Source: a virus
Strand: one strand, 5' to 3'
DNA: 28,752 nucleotides
Virus record (IMG/VR): IMGVR_UViG_3300027759_000329
Span: 1 to 28,752 of that record
The position numbers and the translations under genes are program-made. Position 1 is the stretch's first letter, and each line of letters opens with the position of its first letter. The notes under the pieces were generated by a model. It worked only from the letters and a program-made list of their open reading frames with translations. It had not been told where the DNA came from and did no database searches. Below are positions 3,893-26,126 of the stretch, piece after piece.

Positions 3893-4141
3893 TCAGTAGT
3901 GAGATGCCTTACCGCGTGGCGTGCCAGGTTTTGCTGACGAAAATACGCCGCCGCCAGAAGCGCGAGCAGGCTTCTTGCCAGCAGCAGCAGACGACATTAC
4001 TTTTCCGCCTTTTTTCATGCAGCCGCCGCCTTTTTTGAAGCCGTCTTTCGCGTCAAAAGTATCTTCTTCAGTGCCAGATTTGCGTGAAGAAATCTTAGCA
4101 CCTTCTACTTTTTTACTATCAGTTCTTGTGTAAGCACCCAT
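3893..4141 (-). CDS. Small Lys/Gly-rich protein with KKGGK motif
   Basis: 82 residues from the second of two tandem ATGs. AGGAGG lies 5 nt before the ATG at 4141 and only 2 nt before the one at 4144, so 4141 is the better start. It contains GGGCMKKGGKVM and ends RASGGGVFSSAKPGTPRGKASHY-like. The KKGGK core also occurs repeatedly in the 454-residue protein at 8640-10004, linking the two. Function is unknown; a basic, glycine-rich virion-associated or DNA-binding protein is plausible. Confidence 0.7.
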   Translation of the reverse strand: MGAYTRTDSKKVEGAKISSRKSGTEEDTFDAKDGFKKGGGCMKKGGKVMSSAAAGKKPARASGGGVFSSAKPGTPRGKASHY

Positions 4142-13000: not shown

Positions 13001-14557
13001 CCAACCTATAGCTGACTTATCGGAATTATCGACGTGATACTTCACTTCGTCAGCAATATCGCTGGCAATTAATTTTTTTGCCTGATCGCTATGATCGTCG
13101 GGATCTATCATTCCCTTTTCTGATGCGCGGTTTTGCAGCGCATAAAGGGCATCATTAACTCTTGCCTTACCACGATCCCCGGTAGGCCGGATGTCTAATT
13201 CTTCTTCGCCAGTCATAAGAGGGACCGTGGTCCGGTCCCCCGATTTCTTTGTTGGATAAAGAGCCGATCTAACCTTGTCGGTCTCGTCGTCTGTTAATCC
13301 AAATGTTTCTTTGAGGCGCTCTGGTGAGAGGCGGTATCCCTCTCCTGCGACCGCTTTGGCGTATGGCGCAAGAACATGATCGACGATCCTTCCGAATAAA
13401 TCGGGTGATCTTTGGGAGCTATCTTCCAGCCCCGTTCCTTGGCCACCTTTTCCGAATATGCCACTGAGGTAGTCTTTCGCATCGATTGCATCTCCTTTTG
13501 ACCGCGCAAGATATATGTCGTTTAAGCCAGTAGATTTCGATATGCGGTCAATCTTATCGGCGAAGTCATCATATCTCTCTTCTCCACCAAAGTGAAGAAA
13601 TTTCGCAGCTTTTTTATCTTTTGTTAAAGAAAAATCTAAACCTTCCTGGCTGGCTGCATCCATAAGCTTATCAATGTGCGTTTGAGAAAGAGCCCTGCTT
13701 CCTTTGTTGCCAATCAATACGGCAGGGATATGTTCTTCGTCCGATATGTCTGGGTTATGCCGGACGTGAATTGTCTGGTCTTGCTGGAACCCAAAGCCAA
13801 GCATATGCGCCAACTTTTCAGCATGCTCTGGCTGCATATCCGGATGTTCAACAACGAATGAAGGCTCAGCCTGCTGGTTAAACGTCCCCAGGATCGACGT
13901 AAATCTTAATTTTGCTGGATCAAGCCCGACATGATCCTTCACTAAATCTTTAAAGCCCTTGCTCTTTAAAATTCCTTGAGCCCGATCGCTAACATTCTGC
14001 AGTCTTGGTTCATTCTGCAAAGGATGTTGGACAGGAGGCGGCAATGCCGTTCCTGCTATTGCCGGCGTAGATGGAGAGAACTCAATATCTGATGTGGGAC
14101 GTTCGCCTTGAGCGCCGTAGCCTTCATATTCAGGCTGCTCATAAGGAACCTTGGCTTCAGGCGTAACGCGAGGCCCGCTGCCTTTTCCTGGCTTTGGCGA
14201 TACAACAACGCCAGGGATATTTTCTTTGGCAAATGTTTCGGCAAGTTTAGGCGACTGAACGCGGCCCTCAAACGGGCTTACAGGAGGCCTTGGCGCTATT
14301 GGTCCTGGTATCGTAGCGCCTTCTGTAGGAATTGAGCGAGCGACGTTTAAACCGCTTTCTACAGGGTTGCCCCCAGCAGCCATCACCTGCCGCCCAACTT
14401 CTGGCAAATAATGCGTTGGATATTCGTCCTGCAAAACTTCTCCACCACGCGCCATGCTCTTGCCAGCAGCAAGTGGCGATGCAACTTGAAACGAAGACGT
14501 CTGGTCTTTTAAATGATCGTTGATGATGTCAAGTGCGCGGTCAATTATGCTGCCCAT
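10046..14557 (-). CDS. Large polyvalent-type internal virion protein (putative ejected protein)
   Basis: 1503 residues, the largest gene here. The N-terminal ~200 residues are Pro-rich and disordered. A mid-region at ~515-710 (ADLWFSRTWNRLLGHN at 686-701) and another at ~820-870 (SVADIQAALWFHEKELF) look like conserved blocks of phage polyvalent proteins. The C-terminal ~250 residues carry LHLEELQSDWGQEGRKKGFY (1251-1270), GYDKLVWTPGNEQAKRYDLS (1320-1339) and GGEGMKSFYDKLLP (1414-1427), a distinctive domain of the large polyvalent protein-associated group. Such proteins are thought to be packaged and injected to act early in infection. No membrane segment is seen. GG-containing linker motifs recur at ~37, 909, 948 and 1481. 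The start overlaps the portal stop (TAATG). Confidence 0.7.
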   Translation of the reverse strand: MGSIIDRALDIINDHLKDQTSSFQVASPLAAGKSMARGGEVLQDEYPTHYLPEVGRQVMAAGGNPVESGLNVARSIPTEGATIPGPIAPRPPVSPFEGRVQSPKLAETFAKENIPGVVVSPKPGKGSGPRVTPEAKVPYEQPEYEGYGAQGERPTSDIEFSPSTPAIAGTALPPPVQHPLQNEPRLQNVSDRAQGILKSKGFKDLVKDHVGLDPAKLRFTSILGTFNQQAEPSFVVEHPDMQPEHAEKLAHMLGFGFQQDQTIHVRHNPDISDEEHIPAVLIGNKGSRALSQTHIDKLMDAASQEGLDFSLTKDKKAAKFLHFGGEERYDDFADKIDRISKSTGLNDIYLARSKGDAIDAKDYLSGIFGKGGQGTGLEDSSQRSPDLFGRIVDHVLAPYAKAVAGEGYRLSPERLKETFGLTDDETDKVRSALYPTKKSGDRTTVPLMTGEEELDIRPTGDRGKARVNDALYALQNRASEKGMIDPDDHSDQAKKLIASDIADEVKYHVDNSDKSAIGWYDAALKKAKGLYHQIFPELKTDKDKEMLFDAILGITSQGNDVHSNSIFAARMYDKIRNEGKSIPEAVKDLSGGFGAQTKAIEGNLMKLHHLLDQNGYERMRDLFNQKKSVSEWNKILREDPTLKVPGQEQLTMKGAGDQKITGWMVFGPKIGSFINNLHGDYSTLTADLWFSRTWNRLLGHNFIHSPIAEQKQYQDFKDAVKAEFLHHNGLPHEQYAGKTTNGQYNRDASGNVKPWTFGNDMQDMSHDDFDKLINNPESMQELASKLYKAYKDGGFKDKSDIRRRAKNWMENRDLPVAAPRGDKERDFQQNTVEEAKRVLKKKYGLDISVADIQAALWFHEKELFSKLGVAPERAQPADYEDAARNAMETIKKGELYRVKSREKKPAKAYGGAINPVELRYDDLEDQARRLILWSYAAAPLVRPLSRAEGGAVDDPVNKALDIVGAGSSPTSAVDTARNLTPMGFYSAAAEAASKIPQRAPIDQIINKIKGQPNVKAAELDNANLADAFAGQRSVDPKEVARHLQENVPQIKERVYGGKPPIQYEPKALLERPKGFEDADDVYEVGPYGKPPHLISVKTNYDSVMPHQYAVHGPSGFHSTYFTLADAVEHANNSINNIEQPLYKEYTVPGGENYREVVMALPQQGGTKAQFRVTGALPDIFDSKEEAESYIQELRQKAERNPNIAHKLDRFPMNIVTENKPINEPYKSSHWMGIPNPLAHLRMSDRDNGKTLHLEELQSDWGQEGRKKGFYDPNRPEEKSIIGQMSRDVSSAVPSGPYVTDTNQWVDLGLKRALMEAAKGGYDKLVWTPGNEQAKRYDLSRKLSAVHWSPDSNHLHALDHDGYAVFNQKVDQKDLPDVIGKDLANKLVSTKPLPNTQNVEGDTVHSLIGGDLQVGGEGMKSFYDKLLPQRLSKLVSQYDKDAKVAPHSHSLKGEDGEVKAHSIEITPKLRAAILKGLPAFKSGGDVGESPIIDHAFKVLSKLPR

Positions 14558-16917
14558 TATTCAGTCTCCTGCGCGCCTTGATTACCTAATGACCGAGCAA
14601 TCTCTAAAGCATTGCGGCTTTGACGATCGGCTGACTTATGATGCGAATCAATAATGCGGTCCGCTTCGCGATGCTCCGAATCTTCGCGCAGCTTATGCAC
14701 GTCGACGTTCATCTTCATGGCCTTGAGCTCGAGCTCCTGCCGGCGCGTCTCCGCATCCATCATCTTCGCTTCTGCGTCGACGTTGCGGAACTGGCCATCT
14801 TCGCCGCCGGCTTTTGCCTGCGCCTCGATCATCTTTGCCTGCGCCATCATTTGCTTTGTCTGCGAATCCATCATGCGCGACTCGCCTTCGGCTTGAGCCG
14901 CTTGAACAGAAGCTTGCGCGACCATGCTCTTTGCGTCGGCTTCCTGCTTGAGGATCTTGATCTCTTCCATGACCTTCTGCATCTCTGGCGGGATCTGGCC
15001 AGCCTGCTCGGGCGGCGCAAGGAACTGCTCTGGATTGCTCCAGCCAATTGCCTTCATCGCGGCAAGGTCAATTGCCTTCGCGTCATACATTGCAGGATTA
15101 GAAGCCTGCAGCTGCTTCAACGCCATCACCTTCATCAGGCGTTGCGTCTGGCTTGCAGTGTTTGGGTCTGCCTGCGGGACAAGATCGCACTTATTAATTG
15201 CTTCAATAAAGGTTGCTTCATCCCACTGACGTTTTGGTTTTTTGTTTCTGCCCCAAAACGAATCCGGGTGTTCGCGGAAGCAACGAACCAGCAATTGAAA
15301 TTCTTCTGCTTGCGCAGTATGCAAGCGTTTATGCACGGCGTTTAGGATCTTCGTTGCTTGGTCAATCAACGCAAGCGTTGTTCCGACCGGCGCATCGGCC
15401 CGACCTTCGCCAACTTGCAACTCGCTCGTTGTGCCAACGCGTTGCCCAGTCTCAACCATGTTCAAGACAAGGTTCATCAAAGCCTGACCAGGCTCTTTAT
15501 ATGGTAATGGCATTACGGCTTGATTGATTGGCATGCCGCCTGTCTTCACAAGCGCGCCGCCGCCTGGCGGAACGCGGAATATATTCGTGTTCTGACGCGC
15601 GCCAGTATCTGCCATAAGAAAGCCGGGGAAGTTCGCATACATGCCGGCGTCGAGCATTTCGCGCCACGCGGCAGTAACCGCGTTTGTGGTATTACCCAGA
15701 ATATGAAGTAGACCAATATCGTAAAAACCCATACCAGGAACAAACTGATACTTGACGAAATTGATGCGAGCTTCAGGCAGCTCGTTGCCCTCTTCTCCCG
15801 TTGGCTCATCGTAGTTCCTCACAATGGAGAGAACCTCCCTCGAGCTTTTATCAATAGTCACGCGATACGGGATCTCGAGACCTGTTACCTTCCCTTTGTA
15901 TTTGTGTTCGAAGCCATGAATATCGAGCTCGCAATATACTTCATATATTTCGCGATCGCGATCGTCTGGATTGCGCGCCTCTGCAGAAATGCCTTGCTGA
16001 TCTGCCTTCTCGCGCTGCACAGAATCTTTGCCCTCATACGAAGGCGTGCCAAGATCAATGTCGCGATAAACGCCAAGGATCTGCAAACGCTTCACAGTGC
16101 TTGGGCGCAAGTAAACGCGATGCGTTATGCGCTTCGCGGTCGTTAAATCTGTCGCGGCGTTATTGACGATGAGATCGTCCGCATCAACGGACTCGCTAAC
16201 TGGTCTTCCTCTGAGAGGACAAAAATAGATTTTCTTAAATGCTGTTCCGCCAAATCCGAGCATGAAGAGCATACGATCTGTGTCGGGATAGTATTCCCGA
16301 GCAATGGCTGTGAGATAGTGATTGAGATCGGCTTGGAGAGCGTCCGCAAGTTCGTCTTCTGCGACTGTGTCATCGTCTGATTCCGTTCTTACTTTTACAG
16401 GTCCATCTGTCGGCAACAGCTCGCTGCGCGCATTCGCTTGAAAGCGCAATACAGCTTCGAGCAGAAGCGGATGGCGAACTTTCGACATGCCTTCGACAGG
16501 AGCGCCATCGCTTGCGCCTTGCAAGCCAGGTATCTCGATCTTTAATCCGAGAAGCTTGATGCCTTGCGCGCGATCTTCAATCCAATCTTGGCGGCTTGTT
16601 AAATCGTCTTCAATGCCGCGCAGCATATCGTCTGCGATTGCCGCCAGCTCGCCTTGATCAATTTCATCGACAAGATTGTTGAACCATCCTTCTGGATTGT
16701 CGGCGCTGCAGGCGCTCTCAACGGGCTGCCCGTCAAGCGATACGCTGACGGAGCCATCATCATGCTCGATACGCAGGATGTTGCCCTTGTCGTCCGTCTC
16801 AGGCTTGTCGTGGCCCTGCTCGATCTCAACAAGAATATCTTCAAGGCCGCCGAGGCCGCCGGCTGGCTCCTCCTGATGCTGACGAATTGAAGGAGAAAGC
16901 CCCGGTGTCATTGGCAT
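14557..16917 (-). CDS. Portal protein, P22 gp1-like
   Basis: 786 residues, close to P22 portal (725). An acidic N-terminal extension is followed by a portal core: PLLLEAVLRFQANARSELLP, MLFMLGFGGTAFKKIYF, and FVPGMGFYDIGLLHILGNTT with the PVGTTLALIDQATK segment. A long helical Gln/Ala/Met/Lys-rich C-terminus from ~646 (EIKILKQEADAKSMVAQA) corresponds to the coiled barrel of P22-type portals. The dodecameric portal sits at one capsid vertex, admits DNA driven by the terminase and binds the gp4-like adaptor. An AAGGGA site precedes the ATG, 2 bp after the upstream stop; the stop overlaps the next start. Confidence 0.9.
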   Translation of the reverse strand: MPMTPGLSPSIRQHQEEPAGGLGGLEDILVEIEQGHDKPETDDKGNILRIEHDDGSVSVSLDGQPVESACSADNPEGWFNNLVDEIDQGELAAIADDMLRGIEDDLTSRQDWIEDRAQGIKLLGLKIEIPGLQGASDGAPVEGMSKVRHPLLLEAVLRFQANARSELLPTDGPVKVRTESDDDTVAEDELADALQADLNHYLTAIAREYYPDTDRMLFMLGFGGTAFKKIYFCPLRGRPVSESVDADDLIVNNAATDLTTAKRITHRVYLRPSTVKRLQILGVYRDIDLGTPSYEGKDSVQREKADQQGISAEARNPDDRDREIYEVYCELDIHGFEHKYKGKVTGLEIPYRVTIDKSSREVLSIVRNYDEPTGEEGNELPEARINFVKYQFVPGMGFYDIGLLHILGNTTNAVTAAWREMLDAGMYANFPGFLMADTGARQNTNIFRVPPGGGALVKTGGMPINQAVMPLPYKEPGQALMNLVLNMVETGQRVGTTSELQVGEGRADAPVGTTLALIDQATKILNAVHKRLHTAQAEEFQLLVRCFREHPDSFWGRNKKPKRQWDEATFIEAINKCDLVPQADPNTASQTQRLMKVMALKQLQASNPAMYDAKAIDLAAMKAIGWSNPEQFLAPPEQAGQIPPEMQKVMEEIKILKQEADAKSMVAQASVQAAQAEGESRMMDSQTKQMMAQAKMIEAQAKAGGEDGQFRNVDAEAKMMDAETRRQELELKAMKMNVDVHKLREDSEHREADRIIDSHHKSADRQSRNALEIARSLGNQGAQETE

Positions 16918-16919
16918 GA

Positions 16920-17135
16920 TCAGTTCCCTTTGCCTTCCAAAAGGCGCGTAATATCTTCAACGAAACGCTCAAGGCCTTCGCGGGCCGCCATATTATCATC
17001 TTTGCCGCGGATCTCATAGACGCGCACATAGTCGTGCGGTTCCTTCCCCCAGACCGTTACTTTGAACAAGCCAAGGCCGTGGCCATGAGCTGGAGGGGCA
17101 TCGATCACATCGACGACAGCGTTTGCATAAATCAT
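16920..17135 (-). CDS. Small hypothetical protein between terminase and portal
   Basis: 71 residues (MIYANAVVDVIDAPPAHGHG...), with a beta-strand pattern (LFKVTVWG, DYVRVYEIRG) and a C-terminal helix (AREGLERFVEDITRLLEG). It has a GGGA site and is spaced 11 bp from the terminase stop and 2 bp from the portal start, so it is clearly part of the packaging operon. I do not recognise the family. A packaging accessory role is possible from context only. Confidence 0.65.
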   Translation of the reverse strand: MIYANAVVDVIDAPPAHGHGLGLFKVTVWGKEPHDYVRVYEIRGKDDNMAAREGLERFVEDITRLLEGKGN

Positions 17136-17146
17136 TTTGATCCCGA

Positions 17147-18775
17147 TTAAATTGGATAAAGCGGCTGCTCTTGCTGGCCGGTGTGCATTCTACCTTCATC
17201 GAGGCCGGCTGTGAACTCAGCACCGCGGACTAATAGGCCGATCTCGCGCAAATGTTTTAACGCCATTGACGTAGTATCGACAAGGTCGTCGTGCTTGCCA
17301 CGCGGGAACTGCGCAGCCTGGTTGATGACCATCTCGGCCCATGGTCGCTCGGGCGCATAGATCAGGCCTTCTGCAAATATATGCTGGATCGAGTAAAGGC
17401 GCGCCAACTTGTCCAGGCCCTTCGGGTCGACCAGCTGGACGGCGAACTCATCGTATCCATAGACGCGGCGGATCTCTTGCGCCACGCTGATGCCGCTGGC
17501 TTTATTCTCGATCAGGAGCTTGTCGACGCCGTAATCGTCCATCGTCTCCTGAACTTTGGCAATGAGCTCATGCAGCTCGAGGCGCTCGGCCCATGCATAC
17601 ATCAGCATGCATTTTGGGTGCTCCTCTTTGTATTGGCGATTAAGGATGGCCATCTGCCCATCTGCCCCAGGCGAGCGGGTAACGACGGCAGTTTGGTCGC
17701 CGCCTTTCCAAACGCCCCATACTGTCATGGCGCTCGGGTCATTTTCGCTTTTGGTTGTGTAGGCGGTGTCGACCGCGGCAATCACATAATCAAATGGAGG
17801 GTATGACGGCTGCTCCCACTTTTGCCACCAATCGCGCTTGAGGACGCCGCCGCCTCTTGGCTCTGGCGATTGCTGGAACTGACCTGCGGTTGCATAGGGT
17901 CCCATAGCGTTTTCATCCCGATCGACGACAGCCTCGGGAAAACGATCCGGAAAAAGAAGCTCGCCTTCTTCTTTTCGCGGGTCTTCGAGGCCGAGCATAG
18001 TTGCGAATGCTCGCCCCGGGTCGTAGCGCATCGGAAGCATGATATGGTCATAACCCAATCCCTTACTCAGGATAATGCCGCTTGTGTCTTCCTCATGCAG
18101 GCGCTGCATGATGACGATGATTGCCGATTCCATAGGCTTGTTAAGACGCGTCGGAACTGATTCGAGAAACCATTCCTTGCGGCTGTTGCGAACCGCCTCA
18201 GACGAAGCGTCGTCAACGCTGAGGGGATCGTCGATGATTACTCTGTCGCCACGAGCGCCAGTGATGGAGCCGGCCGCGACTGCCTGCCTGAAGCCTGTTG
18301 CAGTCGTTTCAAACTTTGTCTTCTGATTTTGGTCTTTGGTTATTTTTACGCGATCGCCCCATCGGGCTTGATACCATTCTGATTCGATTAAGCGTCTCAT
18401 CTTTGTTGAATCGCGGATGGCGAGATCGAGCGAGTGCGACGCGCAAACATAGCGCATGTGCGGCATGTTCTTTGGGCCCCACTCCCAAGCAGGCCAGAAA
18501 ACATTTGTGAGGAGCGATTTCATCATGCCTGGCGGCACGTTAATCAGCAGGCGATTGTAATGCGTCCCGTCTTCAAACTCGACGCCATATGTTATGGACT
18601 CGAGTGATTCGGAGATCATGTCGACGTGCCAGTTGTGAAAATATTCTGCGCCTGGTTCTATGATCGGCCACGCTTGGCGAATAAATTCCACGAGGTTTTC
18701 TTCGCACTCATCGCGGCTGATGTCGATGAGCGTTTGTTCTGCGTCGATCTTTGTCCCAAAGATCTCGACGATCAA
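17147..18775 (-). CDS. terL: Terminase large subunit (packaging ATPase/nuclease)
   Basis: 542 residues. ATPase domain: Walker A VPPGMMKS (~80-87), Walker B VIIDDP (~179-184) and the coupling region IVIMQRLHEEDTSG (~220-233). RNase-H-like nuclease: AAVDTAYTTKSENDPSA (Asp336, Asp346), LLIENKASG (Glu423) and KHDDLVDTTSMAL (Asp496/497). This is the motor that translocates DNA into the procapsid through the portal and cuts the concatemer. The start is a TTG at 18775: it overlaps the previous stop (TTGA) and has AAGGGAG 6 nt upstream, while the next in-frame ATG lies about 50 codons inside. The VPPG..KS loop and HDDLVD motif fit P22/N15-type large terminases. Confidence 0.95.
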   Translation of the reverse strand: MIVEIFGTKIDAEQTLIDISRDECEENLVEFIRQAWPIIEPGAEYFHNWHVDMISESLESITYGVEFEDGTHYNRLLINVPPGMMKSLLTNVFWPAWEWGPKNMPHMRYVCASHSLDLAIRDSTKMRRLIESEWYQARWGDRVKITKDQNQKTKFETTATGFRQAVAAGSITGARGDRVIIDDPLSVDDASSEAVRNSRKEWFLESVPTRLNKPMESAIIVIMQRLHEEDTSGIILSKGLGYDHIMLPMRYDPGRAFATMLGLEDPRKEEGELLFPDRFPEAVVDRDENAMGPYATAGQFQQSPEPRGGGVLKRDWWQKWEQPSYPPFDYVIAAVDTAYTTKSENDPSAMTVWGVWKGGDQTAVVTRSPGADGQMAILNRQYKEEHPKCMLMYAWAERLELHELIAKVQETMDDYGVDKLLIENKASGISVAQEIRRVYGYDEFAVQLVDPKGLDKLARLYSIQHIFAEGLIYAPERPWAEMVINQAAQFPRGKHDDLVDTTSMALKHLREIGLLVRGAEFTAGLDEGRMHTGQQEQPLYPI

Positions 18776-19696: not shown

Positions 19697-20014
19697 TTAA
19701 AAATCTAGGTCTTCGTCGTCTGCTTGGGCTGGATTTGTTGCTCTATCCATCGCTGCCTTTCCCAGGGGGGTATCCGCCAGCATGCCCAAAGCATCCATAT
19801 AAACTGCCAGAAGAGCTTGCTCCTCTTTCCTCTTGGCGTCATCCTGCTTGCGCATTGCGATAATCTTTTTAATGATTTTCGAATCAAATCCGCTTGATTT
19901 AGCCTCGAGGTAAACTTCCTTAATATCATTTGCGATTTCTGCTTTTTCTTCTTCAAGCTTCTCGATCCTTTCGATCAAAGCTTTCAGCTGATTGTTGTTT
20001 CCCTGCTTCTGCAT
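19697..20014 (-). CDS. gapR: GapR/DUF2312 nucleoid-associated protein
   Basis: 105 residues. [20 protein letters not shown] is followed by [20 protein letters not shown] and [20 protein letters not shown], the diagnostic blocks of the DUF2312/GapR family. GapR in Caulobacter is a small coiled-coil tetramer that clamps overtwisted, AT-rich DNA and helps replication and gyrase action. This copy is longer than the ~90-residue cellular form and has an acidic C-terminal extension ending ADDEDLDF. The family is characteristic of Alphaproteobacteria, which gives the best host clue in the window. It overlaps the upstream small gene by 62 bp and is followed by a terminator. Confidence 0.9.
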
Positions 20015-20189
20015 CTTCTATTCCTTGCATGATGTGATTAGCCATGTGCCAACAATAGTCACATAGCTCGAGACAGGTGTCTGAAGGGTCTGCGGCTTGT
20101 ATACTTCCGTATCCATCTCGATTTCGATTAATCGTGGCCCCGAAGGTGCAGACGCCACGTCCTATAACTTTTCTCAAGTCTCGCGTCAT
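19953..20189 (-). CDS. Small Cys-rich hypothetical protein
   Basis: 78 residues from the ATG at 20189, chosen because AAGGA lies ~8 nt upstream; an upstream in-frame start at 20285 would run through the regulatory region and add an implausible hydrophobic leader. The sequence has [13 protein letters not shown] and a [10 protein letters not shown] cluster (CxxxCxxC), possibly a metal site, with a charged C-terminus ([10 protein letters not shown]). It is the first gene of the leftward transcript from the divergent promoter region and overlaps the GapR-like gene by 62 bp. No family recognised. Confidence 0.6.
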
Positions 20190-20247
20190 GTCAACATTCC
20201 TTCCGAAGCAACAAAAACATTTTTTTAAAAAAAATGATAGAAGGGGG

Positions 20248-20276
20248 TTTACAGGTGAAGAAACTTCATGTATCAA
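20248..20276 (+). promoter_or_regulatory. Early promoter P1 with operator in the spacer
   Basis: TTTACA (-35, 20248-20253), a 17-bp spacer and TATCAA (-10, 20271-20276) lie 40 bp upstream of the first plus-strand gene. The spacer holds the inverted repeat GTGAAG-AAA-CTTCA(T) at 20255-20269, also found in the spacer of the promoter at 21235-21262. On the opposite strand the same bases read TTGATA-17-TGTAAA, so an overlapping leftward promoter for the small Cys-rich and GapR-like genes is possible. Binding at this site would block RNA polymerase in both directions. Confidence 0.6.
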
Positions 20277-20315
20277 TATCATCATTGAGATTGAGATTGA
20301 AACGGAGATACGACA

Positions 20316-20627
20316 ATGACAAACGCTTCAAACACCGCCGCTCTTGCTGATGCCTACGCTGCTCTCAAGTATGAGGAGAAAAACCTCGCTGCTCGCATCG
20401 ACGCCGTCAAGGCCGAGATCATTTCTACCGGCGAGGAAGAGATCCTTGGCGATACCTGCGTCGTTGCTCTTGTATCCAAGAAGGGTGCAGAGACGCTCGA
20501 CAAGGCAGCTGCCATCGCTCTCCTCAAGGAGCTCGGCGCTACATCTGACCAGATCGCTGCGCTGACCAAGATTGGCAAGCCTTCGACGGCTCTGCAGATC
20601 AAGCCAAAGCTTTCCTTAGCCGTCTAA
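20316..20627 (+). CDS. Conserved phage hypothetical protein, coiled coil
   Basis: 103 residues. The N-terminal helix ALADAYAALKYEEKNLAARI with DAVKAEIISTGEEEILGDTC resembles a common phage protein with an 'A..Ea.Le.ri..lk..i...G.e...gd' pattern, followed by a small domain with KAAAIALLKELGA and a C-terminal LQIKPKLS strand. Its function is unknown to me. It is the first gene after P1, has a GGAG site 8 nt upstream and is followed by a GC hairpin. High Ala/Leu/Lys content and clean codon use suggest good expression. Confidence 0.75.
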   Translation: MTNASNTAALADAYAALKYEEKNLAARIDAVKAEIISTGEEEILGDTCVVALVSKKGAETLDKAAAIALLKELGATSDQIAALTKIGKPSTALQIKPKLSLAV

Positions 20628-20630
20628 TGT

Positions 20631-20656
20631 GAGGGGCTCCGGCCCCTCCCCTTTAT
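20631..20656 (+). terminator. Hairpin terminator/attenuator after the first early gene
   Basis: GAGGGGC (20631-20637) pairs with GCCCCTC (20642-20648) around a TCCG loop, followed by CCCTTTAT. The short T tract is weak, so it probably reduces rather than stops transcription into the next small genes. It begins 4 bp after the preceding stop codon. Confidence 0.55.
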
Positions 20657-20673
20657 ACCTGATGGAGATTGAT

Positions 20674-20877
20674 ATGGCACCGCTTACGAAACCAATCCCT
20701 GACCATCGCTTTCATGAATATCCTGATGATCTTCTCAAAAGCCTCATAAAATTCTGGCGAATGGACATGGATATATCTGACGCTGAACCCGAGGTTTACA
20801 AAACATTAACTGATAACGCCTACAAAGTTCTCGGTTACAGATGCGCTATTCAATACTTAGAAATTTATGGAGATTGA
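20674..20877 (+). CDS. Small hypothetical early protein
   Basis: 67 residues from the ATG of the GGAGATTGATATG cassette; longer in-frame starts run into the upstream hairpin. Sequence begins MAPLTKPIPDHRFHEYPDDL and is helical and acidic, with LLKSLIKFWRMDMDISDAE and a C-terminal AIQYLEIYGD. No family recognised. The last codons contain the next gene's start cassette, so translation of the pair is coupled with only a 1-bp gap. Confidence 0.65.
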   Translation: MAPLTKPIPDHRFHEYPDDLLKSLIKFWRMDMDISDAEPEVYKTLTDNAYKVLGYRCAIQYLEIYGD

Positions 20878-20878
20878 T

Positions 20879-21238
20879 ATGTCTGCTTTCGTCGTCAACA
20901 ACATGACCATCCACCGATGCTTGTATGGCCTGTTTTATGCCAAGCTTGCTTTTGGTTATAGCCCATCAGTTGGCCAGAAGCTTCTTGATTTAAATATGCG
21001 CGCCGTTAATGCGCGCTACAATGAGAATGATCCCGCTCCTAAATTTGAAAGCGTTGGCGATGTTGACGTCTCAAAAATGAGCGCCGTTAAAGCTTTGCAC
21101 TGCCTGCGTTACCAATGCAGCGAAGGCGACATCCCAAAAGATCCTTTGTTTAAGAAGATCTCGCGTGCAATTGAGATCCTTTCAGAAGACATCGTCTGCA
21201 ATCTACCAGAATGGAATCAAGTTCCCTGGGACAGTTGA
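20879..21238 (+). CDS. Hypothetical early protein
   Basis: 119 residues from the cassette ATG at 20879. It begins MSAFVVNNMTIHRCLYGLFY and is predicted mixed alpha/beta: an aromatic-rich start, FGYSPSVGQKLLDLNMRAVN, then VSKMSAVKALHCLRYQCS and a C-terminal helix (ISRAIEILSEDIV) ending NQVPWDS. Four cysteines are scattered. The stop overlaps the -35 box of the next promoter. I do not recognise the family; phage early host-takeover proteins are often of this size. Confidence 0.7.
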   Translation: MSAFVVNNMTIHRCLYGLFYAKLAFGYSPSVGQKLLDLNMRAVNARYNENDPAPKFESVGDVDVSKMSAVKALHCLRYQCSEGDIPKDPLFKKISRAIEILSEDIVCNLPEWNQVPWDS

Positions 21239-21262
21239 CAAGTGAAGAAACTTCACTATGAT
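21235..21262 (+). promoter_or_regulatory. Promoter P2 with operator in the spacer
   Basis: TTGACA (-35, consensus, 21235-21240), a 16-bp spacer and TATGAT (-10, 21257-21262), 30 bp upstream of the next start. The spacer is the perfect inverted repeat GTGAAG-AAA-CTTCAC (21242-21256). It matches the P1 operator at 14 of 15 bases. The -35 box overlaps the preceding stop codon. Confidence 0.7.
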
Positions 21263-21291
21263 ATGAATCATTAATTGATATGGAGATTGAT

Positions 21292-21540
21292 ATGACAAAC
21301 ACCGTAAAACCAGACTTCATCGTTCATGCCGGCGAATGGGCCACCCTGTGGCAGTTCCAGCCTGTTTCTGCGCAGGCTCTAGAATTTGTCCAGGAAGAGC
21401 TGAACATGCTCATCGAAGATTGGCAATGGATTGGCGGCTCGTTCGCCATGGACCACCGCCCTGCACGAGATCTTGCTCGTTACATCGTCGGCGAAGGCAT
21501 GACCGTTTACCACCCTGATTATGGATATTTTGGAGGTTGA
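21292..21540 (+). CDS. Hypothetical early protein
   Basis: 82 residues from the cassette ATG at 21292, first gene downstream of P2. It is Trp/aromatic-rich: MTNTVKPDFIVHAGEWATLW, QFQPVSAQALEFVQEEL, EDWQWIGGSFAMDHRPARDL and a C-terminal YIVGEGMTVYHPDYGYFGG. No family recognised. The gene's end contains the variant cassette GGAGGTTGATATG that begins the next gene, leaving a 1-bp gap between stop and start. Confidence 0.7.
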   Translation: MTNTVKPDFIVHAGEWATLWQFQPVSAQALEFVQEELNMLIEDWQWIGGSFAMDHRPARDLARYIVGEGMTVYHPDYGYFGG

Positions 21541-21541
21541 T

Positions 21542-21730
21542 ATGGATAAGTGGAAAATTTGGATCAAAAAAAGACAAGGTAATGGATTTGTTTGGAATGC
21601 AATGCAAACCAGCGACGGCAGAGTTTATGAATTTTTAACACGTTCAGAGGCAATGAATGTAGCTGATAAATTATATCAAAACGAAGTATACGGCGAAAAA
21701 ATTGCCGTATCAAAACATGCGCCTGAATAA
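21542..21730 (+). CDS. Small basic hypothetical protein
   Basis: 62 residues from the cassette ATG at 21542 (MDKWKIWIKKRQGNGFVWNA...), basic, with beta-type alternation at the N-terminus and a helix FLTRSEAMNVADKLYQNEVY. It is more AT-rich than its neighbours, which may signal separate acquisition. The pattern W(K)I(W)IK...G.V.....S.G..Y.F.TR.EA...A..LY resembles small phage proteins of unknown role. Coupled to the preceding gene. Confidence 0.65.
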   Translation: MDKWKIWIKKRQGNGFVWNAMQTSDGRVYEFLTRSEAMNVADKLYQNEVYGEKIAVSKHAPE

Positions 21731-21741
21731 CGGAGATTGAT

Positions 21742-22071
21742 ATGGATCAGAAACGCCCCTTTATCTTTGGCAGCTTGCAGCTTTGCTACGACGTTAATCC
21801 TAAACTCTGGAATGTGTTTTGCGCATTGACAAGCAGGCCTATTGGTCAACCCAATTACAATTGGACGGAGCATGACGTGATTATCTTTTTACTCTCTCGG
21901 GGACTTGCAAAAAATGACGCCGGAAACGCTCAGACAGATAATGAAAAAAGAGGACCTGTCAGTGAAGGATTTAGCTACGATATCCGGCGTGACAGCAAGA
22001 CAGGTAATTGCATGGCGACAAGGAGACTTTCCAATTCCGATGACGGTTGCCTTTTTATTGTTGGCTCTTGA
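21742..22071 (+). CDS. Hypothetical protein; 3' half overlaps the HTH gene
   Basis: 109 residues in this frame from a perfect start cassette (MDQKRPFIFGSLQLCYDVNP...). The first ~55 residues look genuine (PKLWNVFCALTSRPIG, YNWTEHDVIIFLLSRGL). From about 21905 on the frame overlaps the helix-turn-helix gene read in another frame, and the residues become hydrophilic and shadow-like. A run of six A (21909-21914) lies exactly where the two frames meet; removal of one base would join both into a ~130-residue protein. So this is a true overlap, a programmed +1 shift, or a sequencing indel. The N-terminal part is well supported; the end is not. Confidence 0.5.
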   Translation: MDQKRPFIFGSLQLCYDVNPKLWNVFCALTSRPIGQPNYNWTEHDVIIFLLSRGLAKNDAGNAQTDNEKRGPVSEGFSYDIRRDSKTGNCMATRRLSNSDDGCLFIVGS

Positions 22072-23672: not shown

Positions 23673-23701
23673 TTTTAACACTATCCCGCCGCCGCCGTCA
23701 A
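23673..23701 (-). promoter_or_regulatory. Weak candidate promoter for the leftward replication operon
   Basis: Minus strand: TTGACG (23701-23696), a 17-bp spacer and TTAAAA (23678-23673), 33 bp upstream of the ATG at 23640. The -35 is good and the -10 poor. It is the best match in the gap between the helicase-primase stop and the next leftward gene. Transcripts could equally read through from the helicase-primase gene. Confidence 0.3.
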
Positions 23702-23783
23702 GCGCGTCGGCAGCGCAGCGAGCGGCGCAGCGTCAGCGCAGCCGCGAAGCGGAGCGGGGGGGATTCCCCAAAGGGGGGGGGAT
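23686..23783. other. GC-rich low-complexity stretch with G7 and G9 tracts
   Basis: About 100 bp of almost only G and C, made of short interleaved GCAGCG, GAGCGGCG and GCGAAGCGGAGCG strings. It ends in a run of seven G, then ATTCCCCAAA and a run of nine G at 23774-23782. The surroundings are far less GC-rich. No open frame crosses it convincingly. It directly abuts the ACTTCCG repeat cluster. Confidence 0.75.
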
Positions 23784-23784
23784 T

Positions 23785-23970
23785 ACTTCCGTATACTTAC
23801 TTCCGTATCTAAGTTGCTGATATATCATGTAAAACCTCACGGGAGTATACAAGCTATCTCCGTGCCCGGAAGTATGTTACTTCCGGAGCATATATTAATC
23901 ATTGTTTTCGTTAGATTCAGGCCCGGAAGTATCTATCCTACTTCCGGAATTTTTAGAATTTACTTCCGTA
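23785..23970. repeat. Iteron-like ACTTCCG repeat cluster (putative replication origin or operator)
   Basis: Seven copies of ACTTCCG(G/T) or its complement in ~186 bp. Two direct ACTTCCGTAT copies 14 bp apart (23785, 23799). A perfect inverted pair CCGGAAGT-5-ACTTCCGG (23866-23886). A second inverted pair with 9-bp spacer (23923-23947). A single ACTTCCGTA (23962-23970). Three lie within the 3' end of the helicase-primase gene. An AT-rich CATATATTAATCATT stretch lies between the two inverted pairs. Such arrays next to replication genes usually bind an initiator or repressor. Confidence 0.7.
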
Positions 23971-26126
23971 ACATTTCGGGGGTCAAAAATTATTTTCAGC
24001 CCCTTCATTTTTGTGTCCTTGTTTCTCACTTGCTCGGCAATAAATCCCGAATCAACGAGCGCACTTATCACGGCGTATGAATTTGATTCGTTTAATTTGC
24101 GTCTCGTTATGGCGTGCAATCGACGGTATGCATGACGTGGATCGAGCTTCATATTCCTCGCCATTGACCATGGTTTATTGGCGTCCCAATCCTCTTTAAT
24201 TGACGCCAGGATGCGGTCGCGCTCCTCGATCGGCATCTTGATAGGACCGGCATAATAGAAGCCTGTCTCCTGCTTATTGCCAAAGCCAACATCCCTTGCG
24301 GCCGCCTTGTCGCTCTTTTGGATTGTTGGGACCAACGACGTTTTGAACCCGTCTGTGCTGACGGTCTTCATGTTGATCGTCATCGACCAGCCATCTGGAG
24401 CGGCCTTGATCTTGTAGGCAGTCATGATGAGCTCGTCGGAGCCCTTCTCGCGATCCATCGTCATGATGCTATCTCCGTCGCCGATCAGGGCTGACGATCC
24501 ACGCATGCCGCCTTCGCCGTTTTTGGCGACGTGATGCATGCCGATATCTGCTGAGTTGAACGCCTGCCGGATCTTTGTCCTAATATCATTAAAGATCGAC
24601 ATCTCTGGAGCGCCGTTTTCGTCTGCTCCAGGAATAACCTTAGAGATCGTATCGTAAATTATTAACGCCGGATCTTTACCCTTCGATCGATAATTTATTT
24701 CCCAGGAGAGCGTTTTCATAAGCCGCAAACGATCGGCCTCACGCATAAGGTTTAACGCGTCAGGGATGACGATATAGTTCTTCCGATCAAGCTTAACGCC
24801 GTATTCGTCCTCGAATGCGCTGATGCGGTTGTAATGGTCGTATAGGCCCTCTGTAGTGATATAAATCACCAAGCCATGCGTATTGACCTTCCGGCCTAAA
24901 AAGCTATCCATGCCCGTTGCTACGGCGACGCCGAGGCCCATGCCAACGAATGTCTTGCCGACGCCTGGAGCTGCTGCGAAAAAGTGTGACCCGCCTTCGA
25001 CAATGATCCCCTCCCACAGCCAGACTGGAGGAGACATGTTTCGTAAATCCTCGATGTCCCAGACCCGAAACAAATCCGGCGGCCTTTGAACCTCACCACC
25101 GTCTGTGATATCCGGAACATCCTGGGTAAAATTTTCGAGGATTACTCTTTCATTTGTCTCATATGGCTGGGGCTTACCGGCCTCGTCGGCGATCTTTGTA
25201 TCCCACTGCTTGATTGCCGCGCGCCATTTCTGATTGAAAAGCGTAATGCCGCGGTTTTCACGCTCGAGCAGCATATGCTTCGGCGTGCCAGGCTCATGTA
25301 TCCTGGCCTCGACAGATTCGACGTATGATTCGAATAATTCCTTCTTGTGCGTCGTTTGCTCTGATTCAGTCGGAATGATCGGCGCGTCGCGATAGAGATC
25401 GATGACCTTGCGAAAGATCATGCGATGCATCAGGCTTTCGCGGCCGTCCTTGCGCTTGCCCCATTCATCGAACTCGGCTTCGGGCGTAGCGGTTTTAATT
25501 CGCTCGCCTGCAGGTGTAATAGTTGCACCTAGTGAATCTATTTCATCACATAGCCACTTTGGCATTTCTGGTATTTCGATCGTGTCCGGCTCTTGGTCGG
25601 TCAACCAATCGTAATGCTTTCCTGATTCGTGCTTCGAGGGCGGAAGCATTGCAAAGCCGCCAACGCCTCGGATGTCGACGCCTAATTCACTATTTTTACA
25701 GGTAGGACAATTCCATCCTTCAGGCGCACGGAAAAACATTTGGTAGCCGCCACCGCCTGTTCGCTGAGTGGGACATTCGGACATGATGCCGGCGTTATGG
25801 TCTGTGTGAACCCCGTCCCACCAAATTTGGGCTTTGGGGTTTTTATGGGTATCGAGATCAACAACAACGATGCGCCCAGGAGACACGCCAGTAATGAGAC
25901 CCATATTACTTCTTTGGGAATACTTCCCTGCGGCTCCATACCATCCATCGAACACCTCCTGTGATACAAGTTCGTGCGTGTATTGCTTCCATTCTTGCAG
26001 GAATGGTCGTTTCCATGACTTCGCTTCATTAGGCATGTATGCAGGAACAACCTGCATGCCTAATTGACGATAGAGCTTTGCATAGTCCGCGGGTGAGGCG
26101 AACTCTGAATCAAATTCCGGTAACAT
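23895..26126 (-). CDS. Prim-pol / RepA-type AAA+ helicase fusion (replication protein)
   Basis: 743 residues. N-terminal archaeo-eukaryotic-type primase-polymerase (~1-200): VVVDLDTH with Asp90 and Asp92 as metal ligands, TGGGGYQMFF (motif II, Gln129 where His is usual) and VDIRGVGGFAMLPPSKHESG (motif III). A CPTC pair lies at 140-143. A linker follows, then a hexameric RepA/AAA_25-type ATPase: Walker A AAPGVGKT (~385-392), Walker B ALIIYDTISKVI, sensor MHHVAKNGEGGMRGSSAL. A winged-helix-like region ends the protein (PRHAYRRLHAITRRKL). It should prime and unwind phage DNA. The 3' end contains part of the iteron-like cluster. The ribosome site is modest. Confidence 0.85.
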   Translation of the reverse strand: MLPEFDSEFASPADYAKLYRQLGMQVVPAYMPNEAKSWKRPFLQEWKQYTHELVSQEVFDGWYGAAGKYSQRSNMGLITGVSPGRIVVVDLDTHKNPKAQIWWDGVHTDHNAGIMSECPTQRTGGGGYQMFFRAPEGWNCPTCKNSELGVDIRGVGGFAMLPPSKHESGKHYDWLTDQEPDTIEIPEMPKWLCDEIDSLGATITPAGERIKTATPEAEFDEWGKRKDGRESLMHRMIFRKVIDLYRDAPIIPTESEQTTHKKELFESYVESVEARIHEPGTPKHMLLERENRGITLFNQKWRAAIKQWDTKIADEAGKPQPYETNERVILENFTQDVPDITDGGEVQRPPDLFRVWDIEDLRNMSPPVWLWEGIIVEGGSHFFAAAPGVGKTFVGMGLGVAVATGMDSFLGRKVNTHGLVIYITTEGLYDHYNRISAFEDEYGVKLDRKNYIVIPDALNLMREADRLRLMKTLSWEINYRSKGKDPALIIYDTISKVIPGADENGAPEMSIFNDIRTKIRQAFNSADIGMHHVAKNGEGGMRGSSALIGDGDSIMTMDREKGSDELIMTAYKIKAAPDGWSMTINMKTVSTDGFKTSLVPTIQKSDKAAARDVGFGNKQETGFYYAGPIKMPIEERDRILASIKEDWDANKPWSMARNMKLDPRHAYRRLHAITRRKLNESNSYAVISALVDSGFIAEQVRNKDTKMKGLKIIFDPRNVTEVNSKNSGSRIDTSGPESNENND

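Follow-up and report, generated by a model that had tools for sequence, protein, structure and literature searches.

The gene for a predicted primase-helicase in this viral DNA ends within a cluster of short repeats, which raises the question of whether the cluster is a replication origin and which protein would read it. The window analyzed (the whole stretch of DNA), a virus record that is linear, measures 28,752 bases, and may be a fragment, encodes an SU10-like portal protein and a terminase large subunit at 14557-18775, pointing to a tailed phage. The primase-helicase, our proposed initiator, is a protein of 743 aa encoded on the minus strand (23895-26126) with Prim-Pol (PF09250, E = 2e-21) and AAA_25 (PF13481, E = 6.5e-22) domains; neighbors of its gene encode a RuvC-like resolvase and a GIY-YIG nuclease. 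Two other kinds of repeats were noticed in the window. On the minus strand, 378-1153 codes for collagen-like Gly-X-Y repeats, probably part of a tail-fibre or surface protein. An 18-nt element (ATGGAGATTGATATG...) occurs in six copies at 20284-21747, each located where one in a series of small plus-strand genes begins, and since a GGAG ribosome-binding motif lies within it, a few nucleotides before the second ATG, it looks like a repeated translation-start cassette.

Seven exact copies of ACTTCCG (CGGAAGT on the other strand) were found within 184 bp, at 23785, 23799, 23867, 23879, 23924, 23940, and 23962, spanning the 3' end of the primase-helicase gene and the gap beyond. A preliminary description of this DNA had reported seven ACTTCCG(G/T) units arranged as a direct pair, two inverted pairs, and a single site, three of them coding, and all proved to lie exactly where it had placed them; the base after ACTTCCG is G in four cases and T in three. 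Read on the minus strand, i.e., in the direction of the gene, the word is CGGAAGT(A), the order of the copies is ++-+-++, and the final copy runs into AATCCCCCCCCCTTTGGGGAATCCCCCCC. Numbered in this direction, iterons 1 (ACGGAAGTA, 23962-23968, minus), 2 (CCGGAAGTA, 23940-23946, minus), and 3 (CCGGAAGTA, 23924-23930, plus) fall within the prim-pol coding sequence, followed by iterons 4 (CCGGAAGTA, 23879-23885, minus), 5 (CCGGAAGTA, 23867-23873, plus), 6 (ACGGAAGTAAG, 23799-23805, minus), and 7 (ACGGAAGTAAT, 23785-23791, minus), the last being conserved in L152. The inverted iterons 5 and 3 pair with iterons 4 and 2, respectively, through 9-bp arms, with loops of 3 and 7 nt. The coding sites may plausibly constrain the disordered C-terminus of the protein, as had been proposed; residues 719-743 showed a pLDDT below 50 in the AlphaFold2 (AF2) model.

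The whole window contains 10 matches to the 7-mer, against 2.83 expected, a number that none of 100 shuffles reached. CGGAAGT was also the most clustered 7-mer of the window, with 7 copies in less than 200 bp (the runner-up, with 6, lies in the collagen-like coding repeat), and a Poisson estimate for seven copies in 190 bp anywhere in the window gave ~3e-8. The locus thus has the compact group of several short repeats seen in iteron-type origins, and its relatives typically have 5-13 sites. The search for further copies, suggested as a check in the preliminary description, placed seven of the 10 matches in the cluster and revealed one perfect 10-mer outside it (20102-20111, minus strand; TACGGAAGTA / TACTTCCGTA), inside an ORF at 19953-20285. 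This lone copy, ~3.7 kb from the cluster and beside a divergent gene pair (starts at 20285 and 20316), is possibly a regulatory site.

The same stretch of the window occurs in two further contigs at 100% identity and in one at 97%, and the latter keeps all seven 7-mers. Between the two closest phages, there were 0 changes in 49 iteron bases vs ~9 in 135 flanking bases (p ~0.06). When we scanned for the hairpin itself (CCGGAAGTA-loop-TACTTCCGG), we retrieved the window's own contigs and single hairpins without clusters.

Much more distant relatives showed the same arrangement. The two best annotated homologues, which were not picked for repeats, were those of EBPR siphovirus 5 and Rhizobium phage RHph_N65. 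The former, whose protein is 28% identical, carries 9 copies of GCGGAAGTA (CGGAAGT), starting ~10 bases past the primase-helicase stop codon; the latter has 12 copies of GCGGAGAT (CGGAGAT) directly after the homologous gene, with no more than scattered copies in the rest of its complete genome. A search of plasmids with the C-terminal domain alone yielded a single match, a Caenibius phage-plasmid (E = 0.3, 26% identity), and here the gene stop is followed by 12 copies of TGCGGAAG (TGCGGAA copies), so that a weak protein match receives strong independent confirmation from the array in the 3' flank. Overall, the array is conserved next to homologous primase-helicases that are as little as 16-40% identical.

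For a controlled comparison, relatives were gathered by protein only (119 loci, 97 with the C-terminal domain) and identical C-termini were removed, leaving 74 proteins, some of them first met through the motif. In equal stretches of DNA, we then looked for the most clustered 7-mer of any kind, with a threshold of at least 5 copies within 300 bp. Such arrays were present in 58 of 70 downstream stretches (within 1.5 kb), in 0 of 45 upstream stretches, and in 0 of 70 in-gene stretches, attesting to a conserved adjacency between the cluster and the gene of its proposed initiator. These counts are not independent, as many A2 loci are related, and it was the motif that first led to the groups serving as queries, though not to the majority of their relatives. 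All winning words belong to one family, CG[G/A][A/T][A/G][G/A]T; in place of CGGAAGT, some loci had CGAAAGT in the same layout (-++++++-), CGGAGGT, or CGGTGG. The adjacency is not universal, because in the L037/L070 group the array stands 1-3.3 kb from the gene. Four domain-bearing loci (L165, L172, L157, and L249) had no clear array in the stretch covered.

Scans that started from the repeats led to the same gene. Three CGGAAGTA in close order were found in 120 stretches of viral contigs, 73 of which were in-frame coding repeats; a domain-bearing primase-helicase accompanied 29 of the 47 others vs 0 of the 73 coding repeats. Several of the remaining 18 non-coding clusters showed the same mixed-orientation layout, and for these the primase-helicase gene possibly lies beyond the fetched stretch. 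The CGAAAGTA triplet scan alone added 23 new loci, 17 with the domain gene and 6 consisting of in-frame coding repeats. In 12 longer virus records (19.8-60.7 kb) that were searched whole, most concentrate the word in one cluster, and the remaining records had only 0-3 exact 8-mers. In bacterial genomes, GCGGAAGTA triplets gave 88 stretches, mostly in-frame coding repeats and none with the domain, meaning that the triplet alone is not diagnostic and that the module is not seen in bacterial genomes in this way. Similarly, none of 120 stretches with GCGGAGAT triplets in viral contigs had the domain, so the RHph_N65 word has not yet been seen elsewhere.

The preliminary description had recognized in this locus the classic layout of a phage origin, namely iterons, AT-rich DNA, and a GC-rich/poly-G flank beside a replicase gene. 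The poly-G flank turned out to be a real and conserved part of this layout. Its G-runs (G9 at 23773-23781 and G7 at 23756-23762) are there because a conserved C-tract (23756-23784, minus strand, AATCCCCCCCCCTTTGGGGAATCCCCCCC) follows the last iteron. Among the relatives, CCC occurred at most 9 nt after the last direct iteron at 54 of 66 loci vs 17 of 381 other iterons, the usual form of the element being GCGGAAGTAAACCCCC(G/A)TACCCCC; it was absent from the group (L256) with a CHC2/Toprim primase. The C-tract of the window adjoins a very GC-rich block (23690-23755, of the GCGCAGCG/GCGAAGCGGAGCG type), which is almost the same in the 97% identical relative, whereas the sequence on its far side varies.

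The other two expectations fared less well. Local AT-rich patches (0.7 AT) do exist in the window, at 23810-23839 and 23870-23899, but the family as a whole showed no clear enrichment: over the 66 relatives, the mean AT was 0.515 for the cluster vs 0.507 for the loci. The proposed GC-skew check gave the origin no support. Along the window, the cumulative skew declines steadily in step with the genes on the minus strand and has its lowest values near 27 kb instead of 23.8 kb; in RHph_N65, for which the genome is complete, no minimum coincides with the iterons. Since the skew tracks gene strand in the window and shows no minimum in RHph_N65, we regard it as uninformative here. The claim of an iteron origin beside a replicase gene draws strong support from the conservation of the array next to divergent homologues, and none from the skew.

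The candidate reader of the repeats is located at the end of the protein. Behind the Prim-Pol (AEP) primase domain (residues 19-191; 25554-26072, minus) and the RepA-like AAA_25 helicase domain (residues 350-538; 24513-25079, minus), a C-terminal domain (residues ~632-715; 23982-24233, minus) was modeled by AF2 as a canonical winged helix, with the topology H1-S1-H2-H3-S2-wing-S3 and a core pLDDT of ~90. The tip of the wing is NKDTKMKG (residues 702-709; 24000-24023, minus). The full-length model (pTM 0.39) served for domain limits only. Foldseek searches of the PDB returned only weak matches (best E 0.6, none below 0.001), many of them winged-helix DNA binders, and the best named structural match among viral models was a phage-plasmid RepB DNA-primase, at 2.2 Å. 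By sequence, the domain had no Pfam family in the window protein and none that was consistent over 50 members; its best PHROGs match had E = 0.0096, and no Pfam, NCBIfam, or PHROG profile scored above the cut-off. Our literature search, which left most subscription journals outside, found no description of the domain or of a CGGAAGT iteron family.

These ~80 C-terminal residues are nevertheless common to proteins whose identity between groups is as low as 16-25%, with the pattern R.W....PFS...N....R....W....GM....A......W......I......sK.KGLrV. In the L256 group, the same domain is attached to a primase-helicase of the CHC2 zinc finger/Toprim type, with no Prim-Pol. AEP and DnaG-type (CHC2/Toprim) primases hence share both domain and word, and reader and site appear to travel as a unit.

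An alignment of the domains revealed that the iteron word varies together with the wing. Column 73, occupied in the window by K706, was Lys in 52 of 53 CGGAAGT proteins and Asn or His in 10 of 10 CGAAAGT proteins, and the adjacent column 72 was Ser or Thr in 48 of the 53 and Lys in all 10; the two words differ at position 3. In a tree of the remaining protein, one CGAAAGT clade (L217) was sister to CGGAAGT siblings, and L247 is a separate, more distant protein that stands off that tree. A motif-only CGAAAGTA scan supplied three more CGAAAGT lineages, with His, in line with the prediction, in L366 and L370, and Lys in L358 at the wing position. Four of the five CGAAAGT lineages distinguished by sequence thus fit and L358 does not; as L366 and L370 are alike and could be treated as a single lineage, the tally may become three of four. 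This joint change of word and domain suggests that the small C-terminal domain reads the iteron words. Lys-guanine and Asn-adenine pairings agree with common protein-DNA contacts, and we infer a direct contact of the wing residue with iteron position 3.

The layout was also seen with other words and other C-termini. Among 22 RepA-like helicase genes without the domain under study (top database matches, not a random sample), 13 showed, in the 500 bp beyond the stop, an array in which a different word is repeated five or more times, the words being TTTATAC, TTTGTAG, GTTCCCA, TGGTTCA, CGGTACA, CGCAACA, GGCTGGA, TTCCACC, and TTCCAAC. No arrays were present in upstream or in-gene stretches of equal size across all 25 genes tested, and the six last-fetched phage or plasmid genes (three from actinobacterial phages) had no downstream array. 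Part of this helicase class therefore seems to share the layout, with readers and words that look exchangeable. At some loci with domain-free primase-helicases (L500-L508 and L263-L268), the iteron words are often followed by CCC-TATA-GGG hairpins or CCCCCTTATACCCCC. In Vibrio phage 1.076 (L511), many GTCCG/GGACA words and a CCCCCCCCTATATATAGGGGG hairpin occur past base 3984, after a DnaB-like helicase gene; these repeats fell below the 7-mer threshold.

Might the repeats be operators, through which the prim-pol or another phage regulator controls the downstream small genes or the prim-pol gene itself, while replication starts elsewhere? The array does occupy an intergenic gap upstream of further minus-strand ORFs, the lone copy at 20102 is close to a divergent gene start, and plasmid initiators often act as both initiator and regulator. 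We nonetheless judge this explanation unlikely, given that 7-12 copies in ~200 bp, with a polar end and a C-tract, go far beyond what an operator needs, that the array is found after the initiator gene even where the phages differ widely in the neighboring genes, and that the covarying partner is a replication helicase rather than a repressor.

Another protein, from the host or the phage, could also bind the iterons, the tie to the prim-pol C-terminus then reflecting linkage within a replication module, which alone could hold gene and array together. Such linkage would leave unexplained why the word changes with the wing residues in three of four CGAAAGT lineages and why helicase relatives lacking the domain carry other words (e.g., TTCCACC, TTTGTAG, and CGGTACA). 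A host factor, in particular, would not track the C-terminal domain as the word does, and a different binder appears quite improbable to us.

It is very doubtful that the two inverted pairs serve as terminators of transcription or as RNA hairpins ending the prim-pol transcript: both fold as 9-bp hairpins, one followed by AATTTTT on the plus strand, but a T-run is missing after both of them on the minus (prim-pol) strand, one is within coding sequence, there is no Rfam match, and most relatives have mainly direct repeats, unable to form such hairpins. Terminator, Rfam RNA, and promoter readings of the cluster all went without support. Just as implausible is a partition centromere or packaging site, since the gene partner is always a primase-helicase and the annotated neighbors shown include no partition gene, even though iteron-like arrays also act as plasmid centromeres and one relative is a phage-plasmid.

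Taking the evidence together, we think it probable that the cluster is the replication origin of the phage, bound by its own prim-pol/helicase via the C-terminal winged helix. Similar logic is found in the alpha protein of P4, a single protein that joins a primase, a helicase, and a C-terminal winged helix binding repeated origin words (the ori/crr iterons) (PMC4234260). The window protein resembles alpha in this combination and in the repeated words at its predicted origin; however, alpha combines a Toprim primase with a helicase that is unrelated, and reads another word, whereas here an AEP Prim-Pol (CHC2/Toprim in the L256 group) is joined to AAA_25. With PF09250 and PF13481, the window protein falls outside the P4 alpha family (Toprim, P4-type helicase, and winged helix), and the P4 alpha entry matched L256 in residues 153-337 only, mainly the primase region.

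The ORF904 protein of the crenarchaeal plasmid pRN1 likewise combines an AEP prim-pol, a helicase (of SF3), and a C-terminal winged helix, and the essential origin directly downstream of its gene is a 100-nt stem-loop stated to be without iterons (PMC4234260). The domain combination and the site just downstream of the gene are shared with the window, but the AAA_25 helicase and the iteron array set the latter apart from a pRN1-type replicon. In RSF1010, a RepA-like helicase and a separate primase work with the oriV iterons, which are read by RepC (RepA/RepB'/RepC) (PMC4234260). Helicase type and iterons are as in the window, although there three proteins share the jobs and here helicase, primase, and proposed reader are fused. 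In phage lambda, iterons overlap the gene for the initiator O, which is not a helicase or a primase; this overlap is also found at our locus, with the difference that the lambda iterons are inside the gene and ours at and after its end. The system most likely represents a new variant of the P4-alpha type of initiator and iteron origin, outside the P4 alpha family because primase and helicase differ.

In the mechanism that we propose, one protein, composed of an N-terminal archaeo-eukaryotic primase, a RepA-type AAA_25 ring helicase, and the C-terminal winged helix, would act as its own initiator. Several copies of it would use the winged helix to bind the CGGAAGTA iterons that lie just downstream of the gene, and this binding would load the helicase on the array. 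The duplex would presumably open at or beside the array and expose a strand on which primers would be synthesized, perhaps where the C-tract follows the last iteron; that the C-tract is a primer start site is a guess.

For most phages, and especially for those never cultured, it is not known where replication starts, and our results offer a rule by which to look for the origin, i.e., a repeated word ending in a C-tract downstream of a RepA-like primase-helicase, with the unnamed C-terminal domain marking which word to expect. The covariation of wing and iteron also points to a DNA-reading code that is directly testable with natural protein pairs. More generally, comparing these sequences, we give about an even chance to the idea that RepA-like primase-helicases carry exchangeable C-terminal readers, each with its own 7-8 bp downstream word, and that in the present family the wing tip reads position 3 (Lys-G, Asn/His-A). 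If this is true, the origins of uncultured phages would be locatable, and their words partly predictable, from protein sequence.
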